A stretch of DNA of 34,410 nucleotides from Spirochaetaceae bacterium (GCA_003552185.1 PUOW01000456.1:1-34410), one strand, 5' to 3'; counted from the stretch's first letter, positions 10,204 to 34,003 are shown. Notes: generated by a model not told the origin, from the letters alone. Program-made: numbers and translations.

Positions 10204-11448
10204 ATGCGAACCACAAAAGTAACCGACGGAATTTATCGTCTATCGGCCAACGTCCATGACATTCTCTTCGAAGGCTTCTGGCCGATTCCGAACGGCGTAT
10301 CGCTCAATTCCTACGTTGTGAAGGGCGAGAAGTGCGCGATTATCGACGGCGTGTGCGACTGGGACGGCGTTCCCGAGACCTTGTTCGCGCAGCTCGATGA
10401 AATGCAGGTCAAACTCGAGGATATCGATTACGTGATCATCAATCATATGGAGCCCGATCACTCCGGCTGGCTGGACGCGTTCCGTAAGCTTCGTGGCGAG
10501 TTCACGGTGTACTGCAGTGAGCGCGCGAAGCCGTTGCTCGAGGCGTTTTACGGCATTGTCGACAACGTACACACCGTGAAGTCGGGCGACACGCTCGACC
10601 TCGGCGACGGTCGGGTACTGGCATTCGAAGATATTCCAAACGTACACTGGCCCGAGACGATGGCGACCTACGACACCAAGAGTAAGACGCTCTTCCCCTG
10701 CGACGCGTTCGGCTCGTTCGGCGCGGTCTCGGACGACGCCCCGTACGACGACACGCTGCAGGAAGAGCACATTGAGTTCTTCGAGCGCGAGATGGAGCGC
10801 TACTACGCGAACATCGTCTCGGCGTTTTCGGCGCCCACTCAGAAAGCGATCGAGAAGGTCGACGCACTTGATGTGCGGATTATCGCTCCGGGCCACGGCA
10901 TTGTGTGGCGCCGCGATCCGCAGCGCGTGGTCCGCGACTATAAGCGCCTCACCTCGTACGCGAAGGGGCCGGCGAAGCCCGAGGTCACGGTTGTGTGGGG
11001 AAGCATGTACGGCATGACCGAGCAAGCGGTAAGACCCTTGGTAGACGCAATCGAGGCTGAAGGTGTGCCGACGCACGTTCACCGCGTTCCGGAGACCGGG
11101 CTGAGTTTCGTGCTCGAGTCGGCGCTGCAGTGTTCCGGCATCGTGCTCGGGATGCCTACCTACGAGTACAAGATGTTCCCCCCGATGGCGGCCGCGCTCG
11201 ACGAGATCGGTAAGAAGAAGATCCAGAACCGCGTCTGCTTGCGCTTCGGGTCGTACGGCTGGTCCGGCGGCGCGCAGAAGGAGCTCGATGAGATCAATGA
11301 ACGACTCAAGATGAACTGGAAGTTCATAGAGCCGGTCGAGTTTCACGGACGTCCGCGCGAAAACGATATCGAAACGCTCAAGGAGCGAGGCCGTGAGCTC
11401 GCGCGCGCGGTGAAGGAGTGGTCACTCGGTGCGCGTCCCGCGAAATGA
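10204..11448 (+). CDS. fprA: flavodiiron protein (FprA/Roo-type O2 or NO reductase)
   Basis: A 414-residue cytoplasmic class A flavodiiron protein, which reduces O2 to water or NO to N2O and so protects anaerobes from brief exposure. The N-terminal metallo-beta-lactamase-like half keeps all diiron ligands: His81, Glu83 and Asp85 in HMEPDH, His148 in NVHWPETM, Asp167 in PCDAFG and His231 in APGHGIVW. The C-terminal flavodoxin half starts near residue 260 with the FMN phosphate loop WGSMYGMTEQ and ends with SYGWSGGA. Electrons would come from a rubredoxin or a flavorubredoxin reductase, neither encoded here. It has its own promoter and upstream iterons. The pseudouridine synthase gene follows 12 nt later. 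A hemerythrin chemoreceptor lies just beyond, pointing to an oxygen-response neighbourhood. Confidence 0.96.
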   Translation: MRTTKVTDGIYRLSANVHDILFEGFWPIPNGVSLNSYVVKGEKCAIIDGVCDWDGVPETLFAQLDEMQVKLEDIDYVIINHMEPDHSGWLDAFRKLRGEFTVYCSERAKPLLEAFYGIVDNVHTVKSGDTLDLGDGRVLAFEDIPNVHWPETMATYDTKSKTLFPCDAFGSFGAVSDDAPYDDTLQEEHIEFFEREMERYYANIVSAFSAPTQKAIEKVDALDVRIIAPGHGIVWRRDPQRVVRDYKRLTSYAKGPAKPEVTVVWGSMYGMTEQAVRPLVDAIEAEGVPTHVHRVPETGLSFVLESALQCSGIVLGMPTYEYKMFPPMAAALDEIGKKKIQNRVCLRFGSYGWSGGAQKELDEINERLKMNWKFIEPVEFHGRPRENDIETLKERGRELARAVKEWSLGARPAK

Positions 11449-11460
11449 GTAAGGCACGCG

Positions 11461-12198
11461 GTGGGTGATCGTGACCTGGAGCACGGGCTCCGTGTTGTGT
11501 TCGAGGATGAGTATCTCGTGGTGCTCGATAAGCCGGCCGAGCTCATGGTGCACCAAAACGAGTTCGAGCGCCACGAGCCCACCTGTCTCGGCATCCTGCA
11601 GAAGCAGTACGGCGCGCGTTTCTTCACGGTGCACCGGCTCGACCGGAAGACATCGGGGCTCTTAGTGTTTGCGCGAAGCGCCGAGGTCGCCGGGACGCTT
11701 TCTAAGCTCTTTCGCTCTTTGGAACTGGAAAAACGCTACCTCGCGCTCGTACACGGCCGGCCGCAACCCGACCACGGCACGATCGACCGGCCGCTGAAGA
11801 AGCGCCAAGGCAGGCGTGGGCAAACCGACGCCGTGACGCGATATCGTGTTCTTGCTGCAGGGCTGCTTGATCTCGAGGTGTTGTCGTCCGACGACGCAGC
11901 GGTTTCAATTCTCGAACTAGAGCTCGTCACCGGCCGACAGCATCAGGCGCGCCTGCATACGCGCGCGCTCGGCAGCCCGATCGTCGGCGACCGCCGCTAC
12001 GGACATCGCCGATTCAACCATGTGATCGAGGATCACTTCGGTGCTCGTGATTTGTTTCTGCACGCCGCGTTACTGCGGTTTCGACACCCCGTAACGGGTG
12101 AGCAACTCGAGTGCACGCTACCGGTGCCGGCCGCATGGGCGCCGGTTTTGGCGGCGGCGGGGCTGGAACCGGCCGAGCTCCGTGGCGGAGCCTGCTAA
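11461..12198 (+). CDS. RluA-family pseudouridine synthase
   Basis: A 245-residue RNA pseudouridine synthase that isomerises uridine in rRNA or tRNA. The catalytic motif is [15 protein letters not shown] with Asp61. The leading strands [19 protein letters not shown] and the late [10 protein letters not shown] segment (usually GRTHQIR) also match the family. It lacks the N-terminal S4 RNA-binding domain of RluD, so it is a compact form like RluA or TruC; which site it modifies is not predictable. The start is GTG 11461 with AAGG six bases upstream; no ATG fits. It is 12 nt behind fprA and probably co-transcribed with it. The stop overlaps the stop of the opposite-strand chemoreceptor gene by three bases. 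Confidence 0.9.
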
Positions 12199-14057
12199 AC
12201 CGCGCCCGCTTCCTCTCCCGTTGCGGTGCTGTTTTGTGTCTCGCGCTCAAGGAACGGCTCAACCGGCTTGTCTGCGAAGAACGAGCGATACCGTTTGTCG
12301 CACTGCTTGATATGATCAAGCAGCCAACTGCGCAGTAGCTGCAAGGTCTCCAACACAACCGAGATGCTGCCCTGTTCGTAGCGGCGCTTGAGTTCCTCAA
12401 CTCGCTCCACGAGTTCGGCGTGTTGCTGCTTGTGATGCTCGCACTCGGGATACCCAAACTGCTCGAACGCGCGTTCCTCGCACCCGAAATGATAGCCCGC
12501 GTATTCGGTCAAACGCTCGAGAATAGGACCCACATCGGCTTCTCCTCGCTCTTCCTGTACCGCGAGGTAGAGCTCGTTCAGCATATTAATGATGTTCTGG
12601 TGGTGCGCGTTGAAGGTTTCAACCGATACCGAGAGTTCATCGGTCCAGGACATCACCTTGTCGGCGTGCGTCCACTGCTCCGCCACCTGCAGTGCACCGA
12701 GGGAGTTACCGATCTGATGAACCTGTTCCTCGTTGTGCATCGCGAGCCCGGCCGCGCGTTCCACCGAGGTACGTAACGCGTCGGTGGCGCTGCGGATGTG
12801 CTCGGTCTTTTGCTGAATCTCGCGACTGAAGCCCTGTAGATTGGCGAACTGTTCTCGCGCTTGGTTCGACTCGCGGTCGATCGCGTCGGAGCGCTCCTGG
12901 ATCTCGTGAATCGAGTTGTTGAGCACCTCCAGCGCCGAGAGCGTTTGAGCGCTGCCCTCGCGTTGCTCTACCATGGCGCTCTTGATGTGTTGCTGGAGAT
13001 CGTTTGCCGAGTGAATACTGCTGAGGACTCGTTCAAACGCCCTCTCGGTGCGGCCGAACGACTGCACCATGTCGTCGATTCGGTTTTTAACCTCTTTGAG
13101 CTCGCGCGCCGTTTCGCCCGCTTGCCCCGAGGAGCGTTGTGCGAGTTCGCGGATCTCGTCCGCGACAACGGCAAACCCTGCGCCGGCTGAGCCGGCGTGA
13201 GCCGCCTCGATCGCGGCGTTCATCGCGAGTAGATTTGTCTGCGCCGCGATATGCAAGATAACCGAGTTGGCCTCGAGCAGTGTTTCGGATTGCTCGGCTA
13301 TTTGTTTGATCTCGGAGGTAACCTTCGCGAGTTCCTGCTTTCCGTCCTCGGCGGTTGATACAAGCCCGGCAAACTCCTTCTCGAGGTTTTCGGTATGATC
13401 GGTGACCGAAGAGATGCTTTGAATCATCTCCTCAACCGCCGCGGAAGACTCGGTGGTCGCCGAGGTTTGCTCCGAGATCTCGTGGTTGAGATTGCTGATG
13501 TTGGTGCTGATCTCGCTCACGGCTTCCCCGGAGGTATCGAGCCCCTCGAGCTGGCGGCGAATATTGTCGTCGGTGTCACGAATACTGTCGGCAATCCGGT
13601 TCAGTTCTCCGGTGGTCTTGAAAAGCGTTTCTCGTAGCTCGGTCATGCTCTCGCCGGCCGATGAGCTACCGCCCTTAATGGTGCCGAGAACACCGCCGAG
13701 CTTCTCGACAAAATGGTCGATACGTGCCGCCGGCGTGCCGAGTATCTTGTGATGAGAAGGCTCGAAAACGGAGTGAAACTCACGCTCTCCGTTCTCGATC
13801 TCCGCGAACGCGGTGCTCAGCTCTACAAGCGAGCGCTGCGCACCGGCGAGACGCCCATGAACTACAAGTGCGGCTGCGAGCGCGACCACGAGCGCAGCCC
13901 CTCCCGCGGCAAGGGTGAGCCTAAGCGCGTCTACCGACGGAATCTCGTTTGCCAAGGCAAAGCCGAACACAACCGCCCCGATCGTGACCGTCCCGAGCGC
14001 AAGAATCGCGAGCAGCGGATAGACCGCACGACGTTGAAGATTAGGTGTAGAACTCAT
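12195..14057 (-). CDS. methyl-accepting chemotaxis protein with C-terminal bacteriohemerythrin domain
   Basis: A 620-residue receptor. Two membrane helices (about 12-37 and 46-67) are joined by a loop of only about ten residues, so there is no extracytoplasmic ligand domain. A long coiled coil follows, with the MCP hairpin tip intact ([33 protein letters not shown]; about 270-306). Residues 460-595 form a hemerythrin domain with all seven diiron ligands placed as in the family: His486, His523, Glu527, His542, His546, His582 and Asp587 (HFGCEE, HHKQQH, HIKQCD). The sensing end is therefore the cytoplasmic C-terminus, probably binding O2 or NO, as proposed for DcrH of Desulfovibrio. ATG 14057 is chosen over GTG 14075. 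It lies convergent to fprA-rlu, which encodes an O2/NO reductase. Confidence 0.95.
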
Positions 14058-14070
14058 AGGATGTAATCCT
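14058..14070 (-). promoter_or_regulatory. dyad overlapping the chemoreceptor ribosome site
   Basis: AGGAT-GTA-ATCCT (14058-14070) is a perfect inverted repeat ending directly against the start codon. The AGGA on the minus strand, the only Shine-Dalgarno candidate, lies in one arm. A small hairpin or a bound repressor could block initiation here; the five-base arms may also be chance. Confidence 0.3.
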
Positions 14071-14099
14071 AACACAGACCGACCGGTTTCGTCGCGAGT

Positions 14100-26785: not shown

Positions 26786-26814
26786 TTGACAGCGCGGTGC
26801 GGCGCACCTATAGT
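26786..26814 (+). promoter_or_regulatory. predicted promoter of rsmE
   Basis: A perfect TTGACA (26786-26791), 17 nt, TATAGT (26809-26814). The ATG is at 26829, 14 nt after the -10 box, with no Shine-Dalgarno. The -35 box overlaps, on the other strand, the weak -35 (CTGTCA) of the divergent glycosylase gene. Confidence 0.65.
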
Positions 26815-26828
26815 TGGCGCTCGAGTCT

Positions 26829-27575
26829 ATGAATACCGTGTTATTTCGTCGCGATGAGTTCGAGTCGAGTTCCGAGTACGAGCTGCGGCTTCCGGTACGC
26901 GACGCGCGCGCGAAGCATATCCTTGAGATCTTGAGGCGCGGGCAACACCAGCGCTTCCGTGCCGGCGTCGTGAACGGTGAACTCGGCCACGGTGAGGTGC
27001 TGCGTCGCGAACAAGAGATACTCCTGCTGCGGTTCCACCCTGAGACGGCCGCGCCTGCGCTGTACCCGGTTACCGTTCTGCTCGGGCACCCTCGACCGAT
27101 ACAGTTGCAGCGTATTCTCCGAGACCTCGCCGCGATCGGTGTTGCTCGAGTGGTAGTGACGCACACCGAGCTCGGGGAGCGCTCGTATTTTCAAAGCACC
27201 ATATGGAGCGGCGACCGCGTTGAGCGCAGCCTCGTAGAGGGGGCCGCGCAAGGCGGCAACTCCAGGCTGCCGGTGGTGGTGCGCGAGCATACCCTCGAGC
27301 GGGCCATAGACCGCATCGAACGCAACGAGCCGCGGCCGAGAACGCGCGTTGTGTTCGATATCCGCGAGACCGCGGCGCGTATCGCCGAGTTCGGCGAGTT
27401 CGCGCCCCCGGTGGTGCTTGCGGTCGGCTCGGAACGCGGCTGGGTTGCGCGCGAGCGCGAGCTCCTGGCGCGGGCGGAATACCGGAGCGCACGCTGCGGA
27501 ACGCAGGTGTTGCGCACCGAGACCGCTGCAGTAGCGGGTACGGCATTGGTGCTCTCGAGGTTGGGGCTGATGTAG
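26829..27575 (+). CDS. rsmE: 16S rRNA (uracil-1498-N3)-methyltransferase
   Basis: A 248-residue SPOUT-class methyltransferase that methylates U1498 of 16S rRNA with SAM. The N-terminal PUA-like part includes DARAKHILEILRRGQHQRF. The SPOUT part has LLGHPRPIQLQRILRDLAAIGV, THTELGERSYFQS, EGAAQGGNSRLP (usually EAAEQS.R), the SAM loop VGSERGW (usually GPEGG) and the knot end LRTETAAVAGTALVLS. Both loop deviations are modest and the overall match is good. ATG 26829 is used rather than the in-frame TTG at 26814, which lies in the -10 box. The gene stands alone under a strong-looking promoter, followed by a 180-nt gap. Confidence 0.92.
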   Translation: MNTVLFRRDEFESSSEYELRLPVRDARAKHILEILRRGQHQRFRAGVVNGELGHGEVLRREQEILLLRFHPETAAPALYPVTVLLGHPRPIQLQRILRDLAAIGVARVVVTHTELGERSYFQSTIWSGDRVERSLVEGAAQGGNSRLPVVVREHTLERAIDRIERNEPRPRTRVVFDIRETAARIAEFGEFAPPVVLAVGSERGWVARERELLARAEYRSARCGTQVLRTETAAVAGTALVLSRLGLM

Positions 27576-27755: not shown

Positions 27756-29012
27756 TTGAGCTCGATATTGGTTGTCGATGACGACGAAATGAGCCTCGTC
27801 GTGATACGAAACGCGCTCCGCAAAGAGGGGCATGAGGTTCAAACATACGACTCGCCGCAGGCCGCGTTGGCGGAGTACGAAGCGGGGCGCTACGATCTCG
27901 TAATTTCCGACTACTTCATGCCGGAGCTGAACGGGGACGATCTGCTCGAGCGTGTTCGGCGGCTGGACGGCGAGACGCCGTTTGTGTTTCTCACCGCAAA
28001 CACCGATATTAAGCTGGCGATCGAACTGGTGAAGTCCGGCGCCGACGACCACATCGTTAAACCGATTGTGGCCGAGGAGTTGGTGTTTCGCGTCAACAAG
28101 AACCTCCAGGAGCGCGAGAACCGGCGGGTGCGTGAGGAGGCCGAACGCGAGCGGCAGTTGCTGGAGCTCGAGAACCAACGGCTTGTGAACTGGCGCAACC
28201 TGTACGCTACCAAGGACATCAAGCAGACCGAGCAAATGATCGATCTGTTGGGACGCACCGTTAATCAATCAGGCGGCTATCTCTGGTTGGATCTGCTGAA
28301 GGGCGATCTCGAGGAGGCCGACGACGAGCATTACAAGGTCGGCAAGGAACTCGTGCAGATGATCGTTACCGCAGCCGAAAGTCAAAAGCAGATCTTCGAC
28401 TACATCACCTTCATAGGCCGCATCGACGAGCTCGAGATGGAGTTCGAGGAGCATGATCTCGCGCAGTTCATCAAACAGCTCGATGAGTACATGCGGGCCG
28501 AGCTTGCCGCGATCTCGAAACACGACCCGCGACGATACGTTCCAATGACGCCCAAGCAAAGGCCGTCGGGCGTTATCTCGGTTTCGGAGCAGTACTTTCT
28601 CAAAGTGGTACGCGAACTGCTCATTAACGCCGTGAAGTACTCTCTGCCCGGGACGCGAATCATCACCTCGTTCGACACGGTAGCTTCCGACGGCGATACG
28701 CGGCTCGAGATCACGGTTCGAAACGTTCCTCGTCCGTTACAGGCAAAGGACTCGGAAGGCCGCCAGGTTGTCGGCGTGCCGTACGAGTATTGCGAGCTGG
28801 TGTTCGATCTGTTCTATACCATCGAGGCGTTCCCAACCTACTTCGAAGGCGAAGACTGGAGCGACGGAACCGGCTTGTACCTAGCGCGCAAGCTAATCGC
28901 GAAACACGGTGGGTGGATGCAAGCGGCCAACGCGGTGAATTATACCGGTGACTCACCGGAGACATTTACGAAGTTTACGGTGACGGTCCCGTACAAGCAA
29001 AGGAGTTCCTAA
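27756..29012 (+). CDS. receiver domain fused to a degenerate GHKL ATPase-like domain
   Basis: A 418-residue first gene of the che operon. The N-terminal receiver is intact: VVDDDE, acceptor Asp52 in VISDYFMPE, Thr80 and Lys102 in HIVKP. A charged coiled coil (about 110-150) leads to a helical region without any H-box. The C-terminal domain has a recognisable N-box (ELLINAVKYS, Glu287 and Asn291) and a partial G2 (DGTGLYLARKL, about 370-380), but where G1 (DxGxG) should be it reads TVRNVPRPLQ. It therefore resembles a histidine kinase turned around, receiver first, with neither phospho-acceptor His nor a standard nucleotide lid. It may sense or gate instead of phosphorylating. The start is TTG, set by GGAGGAGG six bases upstream; no ATG or GTG fits. 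cheY follows after one base. Confidence 0.8.
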   Translation: MSSILVVDDDEMSLVVIRNALRKEGHEVQTYDSPQAALAEYEAGRYDLVISDYFMPELNGDDLLERVRRLDGETPFVFLTANTDIKLAIELVKSGADDHIVKPIVAEELVFRVNKNLQERENRRVREEAERERQLLELENQRLVNWRNLYATKDIKQTEQMIDLLGRTVNQSGGYLWLDLLKGDLEEADDEHYKVGKELVQMIVTAAESQKQIFDYITFIGRIDELEMEFEEHDLAQFIKQLDEYMRAELAAISKHDPRRYVPMTPKQRPSGVISVSEQYFLKVVRELLINAVKYSLPGTRIITSFDTVASDGDTRLEITVRNVPRPLQAKDSEGRQVVGVPYEYCELVFDLFYTIEAFPTYFEGEDWSDGTGLYLARKLIAKHGGWMQAANAVNYTGDSPETFTKFTVTVPYKQRSS

Positions 29013-29013
29013 C

Positions 29014-29388
29014 ATGAGCGATACCATACTCATCGTCGACGACTCGGTCTCGATGCGACAGATGACCTCCATGATTCTTAAGGGCGGTGGATACCAGGTT
29101 CTCGAAGCCTCGGGCGGCGATGAAGCACTCAAGCAGCTTTCAAACGATGTGAAGGTGGTGATCACCGATTACAACATGCCCGGCATGAACGGCGTGGAGC
29201 TGATTCGAGCGATCCGTTCCGGGAGCACCAATAAATCGGTGCCGATCTTGATGCTCACGACCGAGAGTGAGGAAGCGAAGAAGAACGAAGGCCGGGATGC
29301 CGGCGCCACCGCCTGGATCACCAAGCCGTTTGAGAAAGATACCTTGCTGAAAACCATCAAAAAGATTTCCGGTGAGGTATCGTTTTAG
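29014..29388 (+). CDS. cheY: CheY-like single-domain response regulator
   Basis: A 124-residue stand-alone receiver. Acidic pocket Asp9/Asp10 in LIVDDS, phospho-acceptor Asp52 in VITDYNMPGMNG, Thr82 in LMLTTE and Lys104 in ITKPF are all present. The aromatic switch position near residue 101 is Trp (AWITKP) instead of the Tyr of enteric CheY. Phosphorylation by the CheA encoded 330 nt downstream is the obvious expectation; the target may be the flagellar switch or another output. AAGGAG nine bases before the ATG gives a good ribosome site. The gene follows the receiver-ATPase gene by one base and precedes the STAS gene by two. Confidence 0.95.
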   Translation: MSDTILIVDDSVSMRQMTSMILKGGGYQVLEASGGDEALKQLSNDVKVVITDYNMPGMNGVELIRAIRSGSTNKSVPILMLTTESEEAKKNEGRDAGATAWITKPFEKDTLLKTIKKISGEVSF

Positions 29389-29390
29389 CG

Positions 29391-29714
29391 ATGCTCGAAA
29401 CCGAGACCACTGTTGCGGACGGCGAGACCCTCGTCGCGCTCCGGGGCGAGTTATCGTTGGCCGAAGCCCACGCAATTCGCGACGCGTTGCTCGCCGCGTT
29501 CGAAGACGGGAGATCGGTGCGTGTGGACCTGCGCGAGGTTAGCACGCTCGAGCTCCCGGGACTGCAGTTGTTGCACGCCGCGCGGGCCGAAGGGGTCAAA
29601 CGCGGGGTCGGTGTTTCGTTCGATGCCGGCGACAACAAGACCCGGCTCGACCGCATGTGCGAGTTCGCGGGCCTCGCAGCGATTAGCGACGTAGCGCCGG
29701 CAGGTCAGGAATAG
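29391..29714 (+). CDS. STAS-domain protein
   Basis: A 107-residue single STAS domain, the fold of anti-sigma-factor antagonists. Features: an N-terminal strand TLVALRGELSLAEAHAIRD, the core VRVDLREVSTLELPGLQLLHAA, and a final FAGLAAISDV. In SpoIIAA-type proteins the loop after the core strand reads D-S-S-G-L, with Ser as phosphorylation site. Here it is E-L-P-G-L: a Pro stands where the acceptor Ser would be. Regulation by phosphorylation at that site is therefore unlikely, and it probably acts as a binding module. STAS proteins in che clusters are rare compared with CheW or CheX, and I do not know a partner. It starts two bases after the cheY stop. Confidence 0.85.
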   Translation: MLETETTVADGETLVALRGELSLAEAHAIRDALLAAFEDGRSVRVDLREVSTLELPGLQLLHAARAEGVKRGVGVSFDAGDNKTRLDRMCEFAGLAAISDVAPAGQE

Positions 29715-29721
29715 GAACACG

Positions 29722-31869
29722 ATGAGCCCATCTACCGATCCCTTAGAGACGTTTCGCGAAGAAGCGAAAGAGCTGCTGGTAACGCTCGAAGAGAGCCTTA
29801 TGGCGCTCGAGGAGGAACCCCAAGACCAGGAGCTGATAGATACCGCGTTTCGGGCCCTGCACACCATCAAAGGGTCGGGCAACATGTTCGACCTCAAGCG
29901 ACTGGTATCGTTCGCGCACACCGTAGAGACGGTGTTCGCTGCGCTTCGCGACGGCACGCTCGAGCTGGACCGTTCACTCACCGATCTCTCGCTCAATGCG
30001 AAGGATCACCTCACCGACCTGTTGGCCCTCGGTGAAGGGTCGGATCCTGAGATCGAGCAACGCGACCGCGAGTTGAGCTCCCGGTTCGAGGCCTATCTAA
30101 CCGAGGGCGAGTCGCAATCGGGTACGCCAAGCGAGACAAACGAGGCGAACGACGCGAACGAGACCGAGTTGAGTCTGTCCGAATCACCGGCGGACGACGA
30201 ACCGGAACCCGAACCGGAAGAAGCGAAGGACTCGACCTATCGAGTTATCCTGAAGCCCTCGCTCGAGACGTTCCGCATCGGCGGAAATCCGCTTCTCTTG
30301 ATCAGCGAGCTGCAAGAGCTCGGTCAGACGCTCGTGATGGGGTTTGTGGCCGATGTTCCTCCGCTCTCCGAGATCGATCCGGAGGGCTGTTATCTGCATT
30401 GGGATATTCTCGTGACGACCGCCGCCGGTGAGGGTGCGGTTCGAGACGTGTTTTTGTTCGTCGACGGGGAGCTCGATATCAGCGTCGTCGACGAAGGCGG
30501 CTTCTTCGACACCGATATCAACTACAAACGCCTCGGCGAAATTCTCGTCGATCGCGGCGAGATCAACCCTGAGGATCTCGAGCACGTGATCGGTTCGAAA
30601 GACTACCTCGGCGATGTCTTGGTGCGGTCGGGTTATGTGACACAGGAGCAGGTGCAGTCCGCGCTCAAGGAGCAGAACTATGTCCGCAAGATGCGCGAGA
30701 CTCGCCGACAGACCGAGAGCAGCTCAACCATCAAGGTGCAGACCGAAAAGCTCGATGAGCTCGTTAATCTTGTCGGTGAGTTCGTGTCGCTGCACGCAAA
30801 CATCGCGATGCTTGCCGATCAGAAGGGAGACCAAGACTTCCGCTCGGCGGCCGAGCAGATGGAAGGCTTGATCAGGCAGGTTCGAGATCTTTCGATCGAT
30901 CTCCACATGGTGCCGGTCGACCTGTTGTTTAGCGGCTTTCGGCGGCTGGTGCGCGATCTCTGTGCCAACCTCGACAAGGATGTGAGCCTCGAGTTGGAAG
31001 GAACCGAGACCGAGCTCGACAAGAACGTCGTGGATGCGCTCAAGGATCCGCTTATGCATCTGATTCGAAACAGTATCGATCACGGCATAGAGACACCGCA
31101 GGAGCGCAGCGCCGCCGGGAAGCAGCCGGCCGGTCGGCTTAAGCTCGCGGCGTACTACGCCGGCGCGCATGTGGTTATCGAGATAGACGACGACGGCGCC
31201 GGGCTGAATACCGAACGGATTCGGGCGAAGGCGGTCGAGAGGGGCCTGATCTCTCCCGACCTCGAGCTCAGCGAGAGCGAGGTTCAGGGGCTGATCTTTG
31301 AGCCCGGCTTCTCCACCGCCGAGAACGCAACCGATGTTTCCGGGCGCGGCGTGGGAATGGATGTTGTCAAGCGCAATATCGAGAACCTCGGCGGCAGCGT
31401 ACGGGTACGCTCGCAGCAAGGCGTCGGGACGAACATGAAGATTCGCATTCCTCTCCCCCTCGCTATTGTCGAGGGATTGCTCGCGCGTATCGGAGAGGGC
31501 ATGTACTTGATCAATCTCGCCTATATCGTCGAGTGTCTTGAGCTCGCGGATGTCGTCGACGGCGGCGGCGATCAAATCATCGATTTCCGCGGGGAGATCG
31601 TGCCGTACCTCGACCTGAGACGGTTCTTCCGCCTCGAGGCCGGCGAAAACGACGGAGGACAGGTGATCGTAGTTTCGGTAGACGACCGGAAGGTAGGACT
31701 CGTAGTGGACGGGATTCTCGATAAGTATCAGAGCGTTATTAAGTCGCTCGGCAGGGTTTACGAACGCGTACAGGGCATATCGGGCGCAATTATTCTCGGC
31801 GACGGTCGCCCGGCGCTTATGCTCGACGTTGACCGGCTGGCGCGCGTAACGCGCGAGGAGCTGCGCTGA
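29722..31869 (+). CDS. cheA: chemotaxis histidine kinase CheA with an extra GspE-N/MshEN-like segment
   Basis: A 715-residue CheA. P1 (1-105) has phospho-acceptor His47 in LHTIKGSGNMF. An acidic low-complexity linker spans about 130-170. A P2-like alpha/beta domain covers 172-262 (YRVILKPSLETFRIGGNPLLLISEL). Residues 270-318 contain two copies of an LG-x-x-L-V-x-x-G unit (RLGEILVDRGEI, YLGDVLVRSGYV) ending in ALKEQ, resembling the N-terminal domain of GspE/MshE ATPases. P3 dimerisation starts near 334 (KVQTEKLDELVNLVGEF). P4 has N-box HLIRNSIDHG (446-455), G1 DDDGAGLN, F-box FEPGFSTAE and G2 SGRGVGMD. P5 is CheW-like and completes the protein. All catalytic motifs are intact. ATG 29722 has AGGA upstream. 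It overlaps cheW by one base. Confidence 0.95.
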   Translation: MSPSTDPLETFREEAKELLVTLEESLMALEEEPQDQELIDTAFRALHTIKGSGNMFDLKRLVSFAHTVETVFAALRDGTLELDRSLTDLSLNAKDHLTDLLALGEGSDPEIEQRDRELSSRFEAYLTEGESQSGTPSETNEANDANETELSLSESPADDEPEPEPEEAKDSTYRVILKPSLETFRIGGNPLLLISELQELGQTLVMGFVADVPPLSEIDPEGCYLHWDILVTTAAGEGAVRDVFLFVDGELDISVVDEGGFFDTDINYKRLGEILVDRGEINPEDLEHVIGSKDYLGDVLVRSGYVTQEQVQSALKEQNYVRKMRETRRQTESSSTIKVQTEKLDELVNLVGEFVSLHANIAMLADQKGDQDFRSAAEQMEGLIRQVRDLSIDLHMVPVDLLFSGFRRLVRDLCANLDKDVSLELEGTETELDKNVVDALKDPLMHLIRNSIDHGIETPQERSAAGKQPAGRLKLAAYYAGAHVVIEIDDDGAGLNTERIRAKAVERGLISPDLELSESEVQGLIFEPGFSTAENATDVSGRGVGMDVVKRNIENLGGSVRVRSQQGVGTNMKIRIPLPLAIVEGLLARIGEGMYLINLAYIVECLELADVVDGGGDQIIDFRGEIVPYLDLRRFFRLEAGENDGGQVIVVSVDDRKVGLVVDGILDKYQSVIKSLGRVYERVQGISGAIILGDGRPALMLDVDRLARVTREELR

Positions 31870-32396
31870 TGGACGAGCAGGGCGCAAGCCGGGCCGCGAT
31901 GGGCGCCGAGGAGCTGGTGGCGCATATCGAGGAGGAGCGCGATAAGTACCTCGTTTTTCGGGTCGCGGACGAGCTATACGCGATAACGGTGTCGGCGGTG
32001 GATGAGGTGGTTGAGGCTATGCCGGTTACCTTCGTGCCGCGGGCGCCGGATTTTCTGCAAGGCATCATCAATCTGCGAGGGCGCATTATCCCGGTGATGG
32101 ATCTACGCACACGGCTCGGACTCGAAGAGCACCAGCAGGATCAGGACAGCTGCTTCATGGTTGTTCGGTTCGAGCTCGGCGACCGCGAGGTGGCCCTGGC
32201 GGTAGTACTCGATGCGGTTGAAGGTGTGCTCGACCTCTCGCCCAACCAGATCGACCCACCGAGCTCGATCGGAGATCGCGCCGAGGACACGATCGTGAAC
32301 GGGCTCGCGCGCGACGGCGAGCGGATCCTGCTGCTGGTGGATGCACGGAAGCTTCTCACCGAGGAACTGCTCGAGTCGGCGTTTGGAGCGATTTAA
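31869..32396 (+). CDS. cheW: CheW coupling protein
   Basis: A 175-residue CheW, the adaptor joining CheA to chemoreceptors. After an N-terminal extension of about 25 charged residues, the core runs YLVFRVADELYAITVSAVDEV, then PVTFVPRAPDFLQGIINLRGRIIPVMDLR with the conserved NLRG and DLR. The second half has VALAVVLDAVEGVLDL and closes with ILLLVDARKLL. Nothing suggests loss of function. The ATG overlaps the cheA stop (TGATG), so synthesis is coupled at a fixed ratio. It is the last gene of the operon; the murC promoter begins within 20 nt of its stop. Confidence 0.95.
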   Translation: MDEQGASRAAMGAEELVAHIEEERDKYLVFRVADELYAITVSAVDEVVEAMPVTFVPRAPDFLQGIINLRGRIIPVMDLRTRLGLEEHQQDQDSCFMVVRFELGDREVALAVVLDAVEGVLDLSPNQIDPPSSIGDRAEDTIVNGLARDGERILLLVDARKLLTEELLESAFGAI

Positions 32397-32449: not shown

Positions 32450-34003
32450 ATGGCGGCAACGGCAGATCCGGCCTCGTTATTGCAGCAGCCCGCGTACATC
32501 GTCGGCATAAAGGGTTCCGGGACCGCGGCGCTCGCCGAGTTGTTGACGCAGCTCGGCGTTTCGGTGAGCGGCTCCGATACCGCGGAGGAGTTCTTCACCG
32601 ACGCGATGCTGCAGCGCGCAGGTATTCCGGTGCGCGAAGGTTTTGCGGAGGAAAACCTCCCGGCCGAAGCCGAGACCGTGATCTACTCGGCCGCGTACGA
32701 TCCCAACACACACCCCGAGCTTCTCGCCGCCCGCCGCCGCGGGTTACCGCTGCTGAGTTATACCGAAGCTCTTGGAGCGTTCTCGGCGGGCCTCCCGTCG
32801 ATCGCGATCGCCGGTGTGCACGGCAAGACGACGACCACGGCGCTCGCGGCTACGCTTCTGCGCGAGACCGGGCTTCCGGGGGCCGCTTTGGTCGGCAGCT
32901 CGGTTCCGTCGCTCGGTGATCGCGCGGTTCACGTCGGGGGAAACCGCTTCTTCGTAGCCGAGACCTGCGAGTACAAGCGCCATTTCTTATCGTTTCATCC
33001 ACGCATCGTGGTCATAACGAGCGTCGAACCCGATCACCTCGATTACTACCGCGACTACGAAGACATCCGCGACGCGTTTCTCGAGCTGGTAGCACGGCTG
33101 CCGCAACGCGGGATCTTGTTGTACTGCGCCGACGACCCCGGGGCCCGTGACGTCGCCGAGCGCTCCGGCGCGCGGCGCGCCGACCTGCGGATCATCGGGT
33201 ACGGCGAGCGCGCCGCGGGAGCCTACGCGGTACGGTCGGTGGAGCAGGACGCCGGCGTTCTGCGGTTTAGCGTCGGGATTGAAAGGTCGGGCTCGCGCGT
33301 GGACGACGCCGGCGGCCGATCGGCCGGCGAGAGCGCCCGGGCGCTCGAGGGCGGCGCGGCCGACGAAGGTGAAGCTGCGTCGCTGCAGCTGCGCCTCAGC
33401 GTGCCCGGGCGGCACAACGCCTTGAACGCGGCCGCCGCGCTCGCGGCGATAGAGCTCGCCGCCGAGGAGTTTGGGCTTGCGGCGCGCGGGGAGGTACGCG
33501 ATCGCGCTCCGGCGGCGTTTGAGCTGTTTCGTGGCAGCGCGCGACGGAGCGAGCTCGTCGGCGAGGCCGGCGGCATCACGATCATCGATGATTACGGCCA
33601 TCATCCGACCGCGATCCGTACCACGATCGCGGGTTTGCGCGCGTTTTACCCGGGACGCCGAATCGTGGTGGACTTCATGTCGCACACCTACACGCGAACC
33701 GCGGCGCTGCTCGATGAGTTCGCCACGGCGCTGCAGGAGGCCGATGCGGTGCTGCTGCACAAGATCTACGCCTCGGCTCGCGAGCAGTACACCGGGAGCG
33801 TCGGGGGCACCGACTTATTCGAGCGGGTTGCCGAAAAGCATCCCGGGCCGGTGCGATACAGCGATGAGGTCCTCGATGCGCTTCCGATCTGCCGTTCGCT
33901 GCTCGAGCCGGGCGATGTATTCGTCACCATGGGGGCCGGCGACAACTGGCGACTCGGCCGCGCGGTGCTTGAAGAGCTCAGCTACAAGAGGAGTACGCGA
34001 TGA
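32450..34003 (+). CDS. murC: UDP-N-acetylmuramate--L-alanine ligase
   Basis: MurC adds L-alanine to UDP-N-acetylmuramate in peptidoglycan precursor synthesis. The first domain opens with YIVGIKGSGTAALAELL and GSD. The ATP loop is GVHGKTTTTA. AETCEYKRHFLSFHP and SVEPDHLDYY match MurC of clostridia and spirochaetes, where the acidic residue stands in a CEY context. The final domain has IDDYGHHPTAI and ends with TMGAGDNW. At 517 residues it is longer than usual (about 450-470). Part of the surplus is a Ser/Gly/Ala/Glu-rich insert at about 280-308 in the central domain. Mpl, a related recycling ligase, is a less likely identity. There is no Shine-Dalgarno; the promoter suggests a leaderless mRNA. 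The stop overlaps the yicC start (ATGA). Confidence 0.88.
   Translation: MAATADPASLLQQPAYIVGIKGSGTAALAELLTQLGVSVSGSDTAEEFFTDAMLQRAGIPVREGFAEENLPAEAETVIYSAAYDPNTHPELLAARRRGLPLLSYTEALGAFSAGLPSIAIAGVHGKTTTTALAATLLRETGLPGAALVGSSVPSLGDRAVHVGGNRFFVAETCEYKRHFLSFHPRIVVITSVEPDHLDYYRDYEDIRDAFLELVARLPQRGILLYCADDPGARDVAERSGARRADLRIIGYGERAAGAYAVRSVEQDAGVLRFSVGIERSGSRVDDAGGRSAGESARALEGGAADEGEAASLQLRLSVPGRHNALNAAAALAAIELAAEEFGLAARGEVRDRAPAAFELFRGSARRSELVGEAGGITIIDDYGHHPTAIRTTIAGLRAFYPGRRIVVDFMSHTYTRTAALLDEFATALQEADAVLLHKIYASAREQYTGSVGGTDLFERVAEKHPGPVRYSDEVLDALPICRSLLEPGDVFVTMGAGDNWRLGRAVLEELSYKRSTR

Follow-up and report, generated by a model that had tools for sequence, protein, structure and literature searches.

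An accessory chemosensory operon of Spirochaetales that encodes a CheS-like STAS protein and a predicted receiver-controlled pseudo-kinase

The STAS protein CheS of Sinorhizobium meliloti reportedly binds CheA and influences CheY phosphate transfer, wherein it assists CheA in passing phosphate from a first CheY on to a second (PMC12654446). Among spirochaetes, the F2 chemosensory system includes a CheW-CheR-like protein, and classes F7 and F8 are also both known in Spirochaetota (PMC7666581). A third point of comparison is LvrB of the spirochaete Leptospira (PDB 8vc9), in which an N-terminal receiver, a helix linker and DHp-like and CA-like domains form a kinase that has a catalytic H161 and phosphorylates LvrC. 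Here we describe a five-gene che operon carried on a 34,410-nucleotide stretch of DNA from Spirochaetaceae bacterium (GCA_003552185.1, PUOW01000456.1:1-34410; hereafter the window). Most of this operon fits known logic, in that it pairs an additional chemosensory kinase with a STAS protein resembling CheS. The range of CheS-type STAS proteins is thereby apparently extended to spirochaetes. The product of its first gene, which we call REC-pHK, is most likely a second, CheA-fed response regulator that acts through a pseudo-kinase. The operon comprises the following genes.

27756..29012, + strand: REC-pHK (receiver-HATPase gene), with a TTG start after GGAGG, from the open reading frame (ORF) call and Pfam; the layout is a receiver (REC), a coiled helix, a degenerate dimerization and histidine phosphotransfer (DHp) domain without His, and a degenerate catalytic and ATP-binding (CA) domain.
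29014..29388, + strand: CheY, a single receiver domain, from Pfam and conserved residues.
29391..29714, + strand: STAS protein, a single domain, CheS-like, from Pfam.
29722..31869, + strand: CheA, with P1 (Hpt), a P2-like region (about residues 168-260), a degenerate MshEN-like repeat (about 269-317), P3, P4 and P5.
31869..32396, + strand: CheW coupling protein, from Pfam.

The five genes lie on one strand with intergenic gaps of 1, 2, 7 and -1 nt. Their Pfam matches, all of which exceed the curated cut-offs, are Response_reg (92 bits) and HATPase_c (34 bits) for REC-pHK, Response_reg (93 bits) for CheY, STAS_2 (40 bits) and STAS (28 bits) for the STAS protein, Hpt, H-kinase_dim, HATPase_c and CheW for CheA, and CheW (116 bits) for the last protein. 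A first-pass annotation of this DNA had reported five tightly packed genes with gaps of -1 to 7 nt, forming a non-standard che operon of a spirochaete with added receiver-ATPase and STAS genes, and the coordinates, gaps, ORFs and Pfam matches agree with that description. A scan for promoters and terminators gave a result at chance level. That the operon is more than a chance arrangement is confirmed by the repetition of its gene set and order in many relatives.

The receiver of REC-pHK is intact and predicted to be phosphorylatable, as D9, D52, T80 and K102 are invariant in 19 homologues. None of these homologues carries a histidine at the H-box position, and the DxGxG motif of the G1 box is replaced by RN.P plus an insertion, with G1 lost in all homologues. 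The N box (E287, N291 and K294) and the glycines of G2 are invariant. Profile comparison with HisKA kinases gives a probability of 98.7% over DHp helix 2 and the CA domain. When the AlphaFold2 model of the protein (predicted local distance difference test, pLDDT, 76; predicted template modeling score, pTM, 0.51) was searched with Foldseek, LvrB was the best full-length match (E 8e-22 over 436 columns; next match E 3e-11), and DivL and RetS are also among the fold matches. Against PDB sequences, the whole protein gives only receiver matches among the best 60, and its C-terminal half matches ordinary kinases. The architecture is a known one, and the family that carries it here is rare and undescribed. 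REC-pHK shares the domain plan of LvrB, but lacks the H-box histidine and G1, and so cannot relay phosphate as LvrB does. Its sequence and modeled fold indicate a pseudo Rec-controlled histidine kinase, LvrB-shaped and predicted to be unable to autophosphorylate.

The invariant N box and G2 glycines, together with the matches to DivL and RetS, could instead point to a kinase that remains active, either through another acceptor residue or in trans on another DHp protein. We consider this very improbable, given that G1 is lost in all homologues and that the acceptor position is occupied by Arg, Asn or Gln. The former active site is nevertheless under constraint. The segment spanning residues 165-181 (including R167, N170, Q171, G173, G174 and W177) ranks 12th in conservation among 402 17-residue windows of the protein, with R167 and N170 invariant and Q171 present in 18 of 19 homologues. 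Such conservation without the histidine argues that the site is selected for a role distinct from autophosphorylation.

The distribution of the family offers a clue to how the receiver may be phosphorylated. REC-pHK occurs in 6 of 198 genomes sampled across the phylum, and a peptide-pattern scan of 84,980 species, a method that can miss distant relatives, found 20 loci, all in Spirochaetota records. Outside Spirochaetales, the gene lies immediately downstream of a lone Hpt gene (L092) and, with overlapping genes, of a PAS-kinase-REC-Hpt hybrid (L122). Stand-alone copies also directly follow MCP (methyl-accepting chemotaxis protein) genes in Spirochaetales (L089, L090), a REC-HD-GYP gene (L086) and a PAS-GGDEF-EAL gene (L091). 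The association with Hpt-bearing partners in three unrelated contexts suggests that an Hpt domain supplies phosphate to the receiver; in this operon, that domain would be P1 of CheA.

The operon CheA is catalytically complete by sequence, with His47 of P1, the N box, the G1 motif DDG.G and the G2 motif GRGVG invariant in 11 orthologues. Residues 168-260 resemble a P2 domain, with a weak Foldseek match to 1u0s (E 7e-3). The accompanying CheY retains D9, D52, T82 and K104 in all 15 orthologues compared, and has Trp101 near the usual Tyr switch position.

In the STAS protein, the serine of anti-anti-sigma factors (SpoIIAA/RsbV) on which SpoIIAB-type kinases act is replaced by Ala, Pro or Thr in all aligned orthologues, and the STAS proteins of proteobacterial che operons likewise lack a phospho-serine. 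The gene orders CheY-STAS-CheA or STAS-CheY-CheA recur on Pseudomonas and Methylosinus plasmids and in the che operon of S. meliloti. Like CheS, the operon protein is encoded by a stand-alone STAS gene adjoining cheY and cheA and has no canonical phospho-serine. Unlike the present operon, the S. meliloti cluster also holds cheR, cheB, cheD, cheT and a second cheY, and sequence similarity between the two STAS proteins is very low. The proteobacterial CheY-STAS-CheA-...-CheR-CheD-CheB clusters, such as that on the plasmid of Pseudomonas sp. HR96, share the order of the first three genes and a CheA that is 38% identical over 98% of its length, but include MCP, CheR, CheD and CheB genes and have no REC-pHK. 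A CheS-like action of the operon STAS protein is the economical reading of these similarities, which make it a putative member of the CheS family.

The co-occurrence in one operon of a STAS protein and an ATPase with the Bergerat fold could also be read as an RsbW/SpoIIAB-RsbV-like partner-switching pair through which the pathway controls a sigma factor. Leptospira LvrC, which combines a receiver with an anti-sigma-like fold, was likewise recovered in the REC-pHK fold search (E 1e-9). LvrB matches REC-pHK 12 orders of magnitude better, however, the ATPase domain matches HATPase_c rather than HATPase_c_2, and the serine on which such a switch depends is replaced. Moreover, the two genes are separable. 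The STAS gene is found with or without REC-pHK in operons of this CheA clade, in proteobacterial che operons and in operons of a second CheA clade of spirochaetes, and it is not among the neighbors of stand-alone REC-pHK copies. We therefore regard partner switching as very improbable. The view of the first-pass annotation that the receiver-ATPase and STAS proteins form a pair is not borne out by these neighborhoods, and a pathway that acts through a STAS partner in the manner of anti-sigma systems is disfavored. Absence of the added genes from the orthologous operons of relatives, which would have counted against that annotation, was observed in part for REC-pHK and was not observed for STAS.

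The scheme best supported by these observations, to which we assign a probability of about 0.5, has CheA phosphorylating both CheY and REC-pHK, with the CheS-like STAS protein tuning CheA. CheA would couple through CheW to receptors encoded elsewhere, and its phosphate would pass to two receivers, that of the operon CheY and that of REC-pHK. Judging from its gene position and sequence, the STAS protein may bind CheA and shift the distribution of phosphate or the turnover of CheY~P, without phosphorylation of a canonical serine. Phosphorylation of the REC-pHK receiver would rearrange its LvrB-like body of coiled coil, DHp and CA domains. Because this body has no histidine and is not expected to autophosphorylate, its output would be partner binding or phosphatase action on a partner, for which CheY~P is the likeliest candidate within the operon.

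One rival to this scheme and one specific form of it can be considered for REC-pHK. In the rival, the receiver is a mere sink for CheA phosphate, like S. meliloti CheY1, and the kinase-like half is a scaffold for dimerization and localization. In favor of a sink are the intact receiver encoded next to CheA and a CheS-like STAS protein, and the movement of phosphate between CheY proteins in S. meliloti. We judge this possibility rather unlikely, since few parts of the protein are as conserved as the former active site, and since a sink makes little sense for the homologues whose neighbors are Hpt proteins and include no further receiver. In the specific form of the scheme, which we put forward tentatively and consider slightly less probable than the sink, REC-pHK is a former kinase turned receiver-gated CheY~P phosphatase, with R167, N170 and Q171 as its active site, providing a feedback termination switched by CheA that replaces CheX, CheZ or CheT in this pathway. 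This idea derives from the presence of residues with amide side chains close to the site on which HisKA kinases rely for phosphatase activity. In a global alignment of low confidence, R167 falls at the His position and the NQ motif near H+4. If REC-pHK does dephosphorylate or sequester CheY~P, then it would represent a further evolutionary route by which a chemosensory signal is terminated, and would offer a natural test of the capabilities of a Rec-controlled kinase without kinase activity.

Several observations weigh against the scheme of a CheA-fed pseudo-kinase acting on CheY~P beside a CheS-like tuner. The STAS protein resembles CheS by gene position, and only weakly by sequence. The register of the H box is uncertain, as the local profile alignment starts after it, and the AlphaFold2 model has pLDDT <50 at residues 144-165 and 167-170. 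In CrdS, HisKA phosphatase activity was lost upon the substitution N375Q (PMC3510030), and Gln at H+4 is therefore not in itself predictive of a phosphatase. No cheY gene adjoins REC-pHK in L092 or L122, and CheY thus cannot be its universal partner. Finally, at least six orthologous operons (G017, G036, G040, G035, G045 and G031) have no REC-pHK gene, and in these rsmE is followed directly by cheY. As these operons keep cheY and cheA, REC-pHK is an optional add-on rather than a fixed partner of STAS. In G026, the REC-pHK gene is not adjacent to the operon, and a homologue is present elsewhere in G026, G035 and G045.

The operon as a whole represents an accessory chemosensory module that is conserved in Spirochaetales. 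It is usually flanked by rsmE on one side and a Mur ligase gene on the other, and the order rsmE-[REC-pHK]-cheY-STAS-cheA-[cheW]-mpl is repeated across the order. The two flanking genes are conserved syntenic neighbors outside the pathway.

26814..27575, + strand: RsmE-type rRNA methyltransferase, upstream.
32450..34003, + strand: Mur ligase family protein (Mpl/MurC-like), downstream.

The named hosts are mostly uncultured Spirochaetaceae and Spirochaetales metagenome-assembled genomes, along with Alkalispirochaeta alkalica DSM 8900, in which REC-pHK, cheY, STAS and cheA are all present as orthologues (L085, identical to L041). The operon CheA belongs to a well-supported clade (100/100) of 22 sampled sequences, distinct from the F2 CheA and from the second spirochaete clade, which is accompanied by STAS, CheR and CheB. 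Within the order, REC-pHK is found in 21 of 26 genomes with this CheA clade and in none of 20 without it (Fisher 1e-8, not corrected for phylogeny), such that every one of the 21 genomes with REC-pHK also has the clade. The STAS gene is present in nearly all operons of the clade; G035 is not resolved, and the gene is gone from the broken copies in G003 and G004.

These broken copies belong to the window's own genus, within which the operon is being lost. Genome G002 lacks both the operon CheA and REC-pHK, the G003 copy is broken (L048, 9890-11770), and in G004 a cheY-cheA deletion removed STAS (L029, 6440-6666). The junctions in G003 and G004 differ, which points to separate losses. This pattern might be taken to mean that the operon is decaying and has no selected function. 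We find this very unlikely, as the window and G001 copies are intact (CheY 94%, CheA 89% and STAS 79% identical) and the catalytic residues are invariant across the order. The F2 CheA is retained in G001-G003, and its retention while the operon is lost argues against the operon as the main control of the motor.

The host genome encodes the functions that the operon itself omits. Its fragmented assembly, in 457 contigs (92% complete, 7% contamination), contains at least 12 MCP genes, four genes with CheR domains, CheB on contig C113 and CheX on contig C338. The first-pass statement that there is no receptor, CheR, CheB or CheX consequently holds for the operon and fails for the genome, and the non-standard adaptation that it proposed is unneeded with CheR and CheB encoded elsewhere. 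Having no receptors or adaptation enzymes of its own, the operon must draw its receptors, and adaptation enzymes if it uses any, from the rest of the genome. Contigs C299 (cheA-cheW) and C338 (CheW-CheR-like/cheX/cheY) jointly match the spirochaete F2 system (PMC7666581). The operon shares with that system a host genome and the logic of CheA, CheW and CheY, but has neither the CheW-CheR-like fusion of the F2 class nor the CheX that the F2 cluster of this genome carries, and its CheA is only about 40% identical to the F2 CheA of the same genome. The operon is thus an accessory system, additional to the F2-type one. Contig C113 (L051) carries a cheA-cheR-cheB-kinase cluster of the second spirochaete CheA clade, and C428 a divergent CheA.

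One of the MCP genes lies inside the window (12195-14075, - strand), approximately 14 kb upstream of the che operon. Its product has a C-terminal hemerythrin domain and is likely an oxygen- or redox-linked receptor.

Residues 269-317 of the operon CheA match an MshEN-like repeat above the NCBIfam cut-off, and MshEN-CheA fusions have already been noted (PMC5013675). MshEN domains contain two RLGxx..LxxxLxxQ motifs 5 residues apart (PMC5013675). In all orthologues of this CheA, the Gln of motif I is replaced by Lys or Arg, the Arg of motif II by Tyr or Phe, and the spacer is reduced to about 1 residue; the fold search that gave the weak P2 match returned no match to MshEN. With binding residues and spacing degenerate, control of CheA by cyclic di-GMP through this repeat was rejected, and binding of the nucleotide is not predicted from the sequence.

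Elsewhere, a CheA in a genome of another family (G019, L096) is 75% identical to the window CheA and adjoins cheR and cheB, reflecting either horizontal transfer or a binning error. At three loci of the second CheA clade (L105, L106 and L107), cheA is preceded by a STAS gene and has cheR-cheB and kinase or receiver genes nearby. A divergent CheA-like protein of the host genome (L054, 5745-7772) is encoded in an operon with DnaK-, DnaJ- and FapA-like proteins, with domains assigned by eye. Within the window, positions 10204-11448 (+ strand) encode an ODP-family protein that combines a metallo-beta-lactamase fold with a flavodoxin-like domain.

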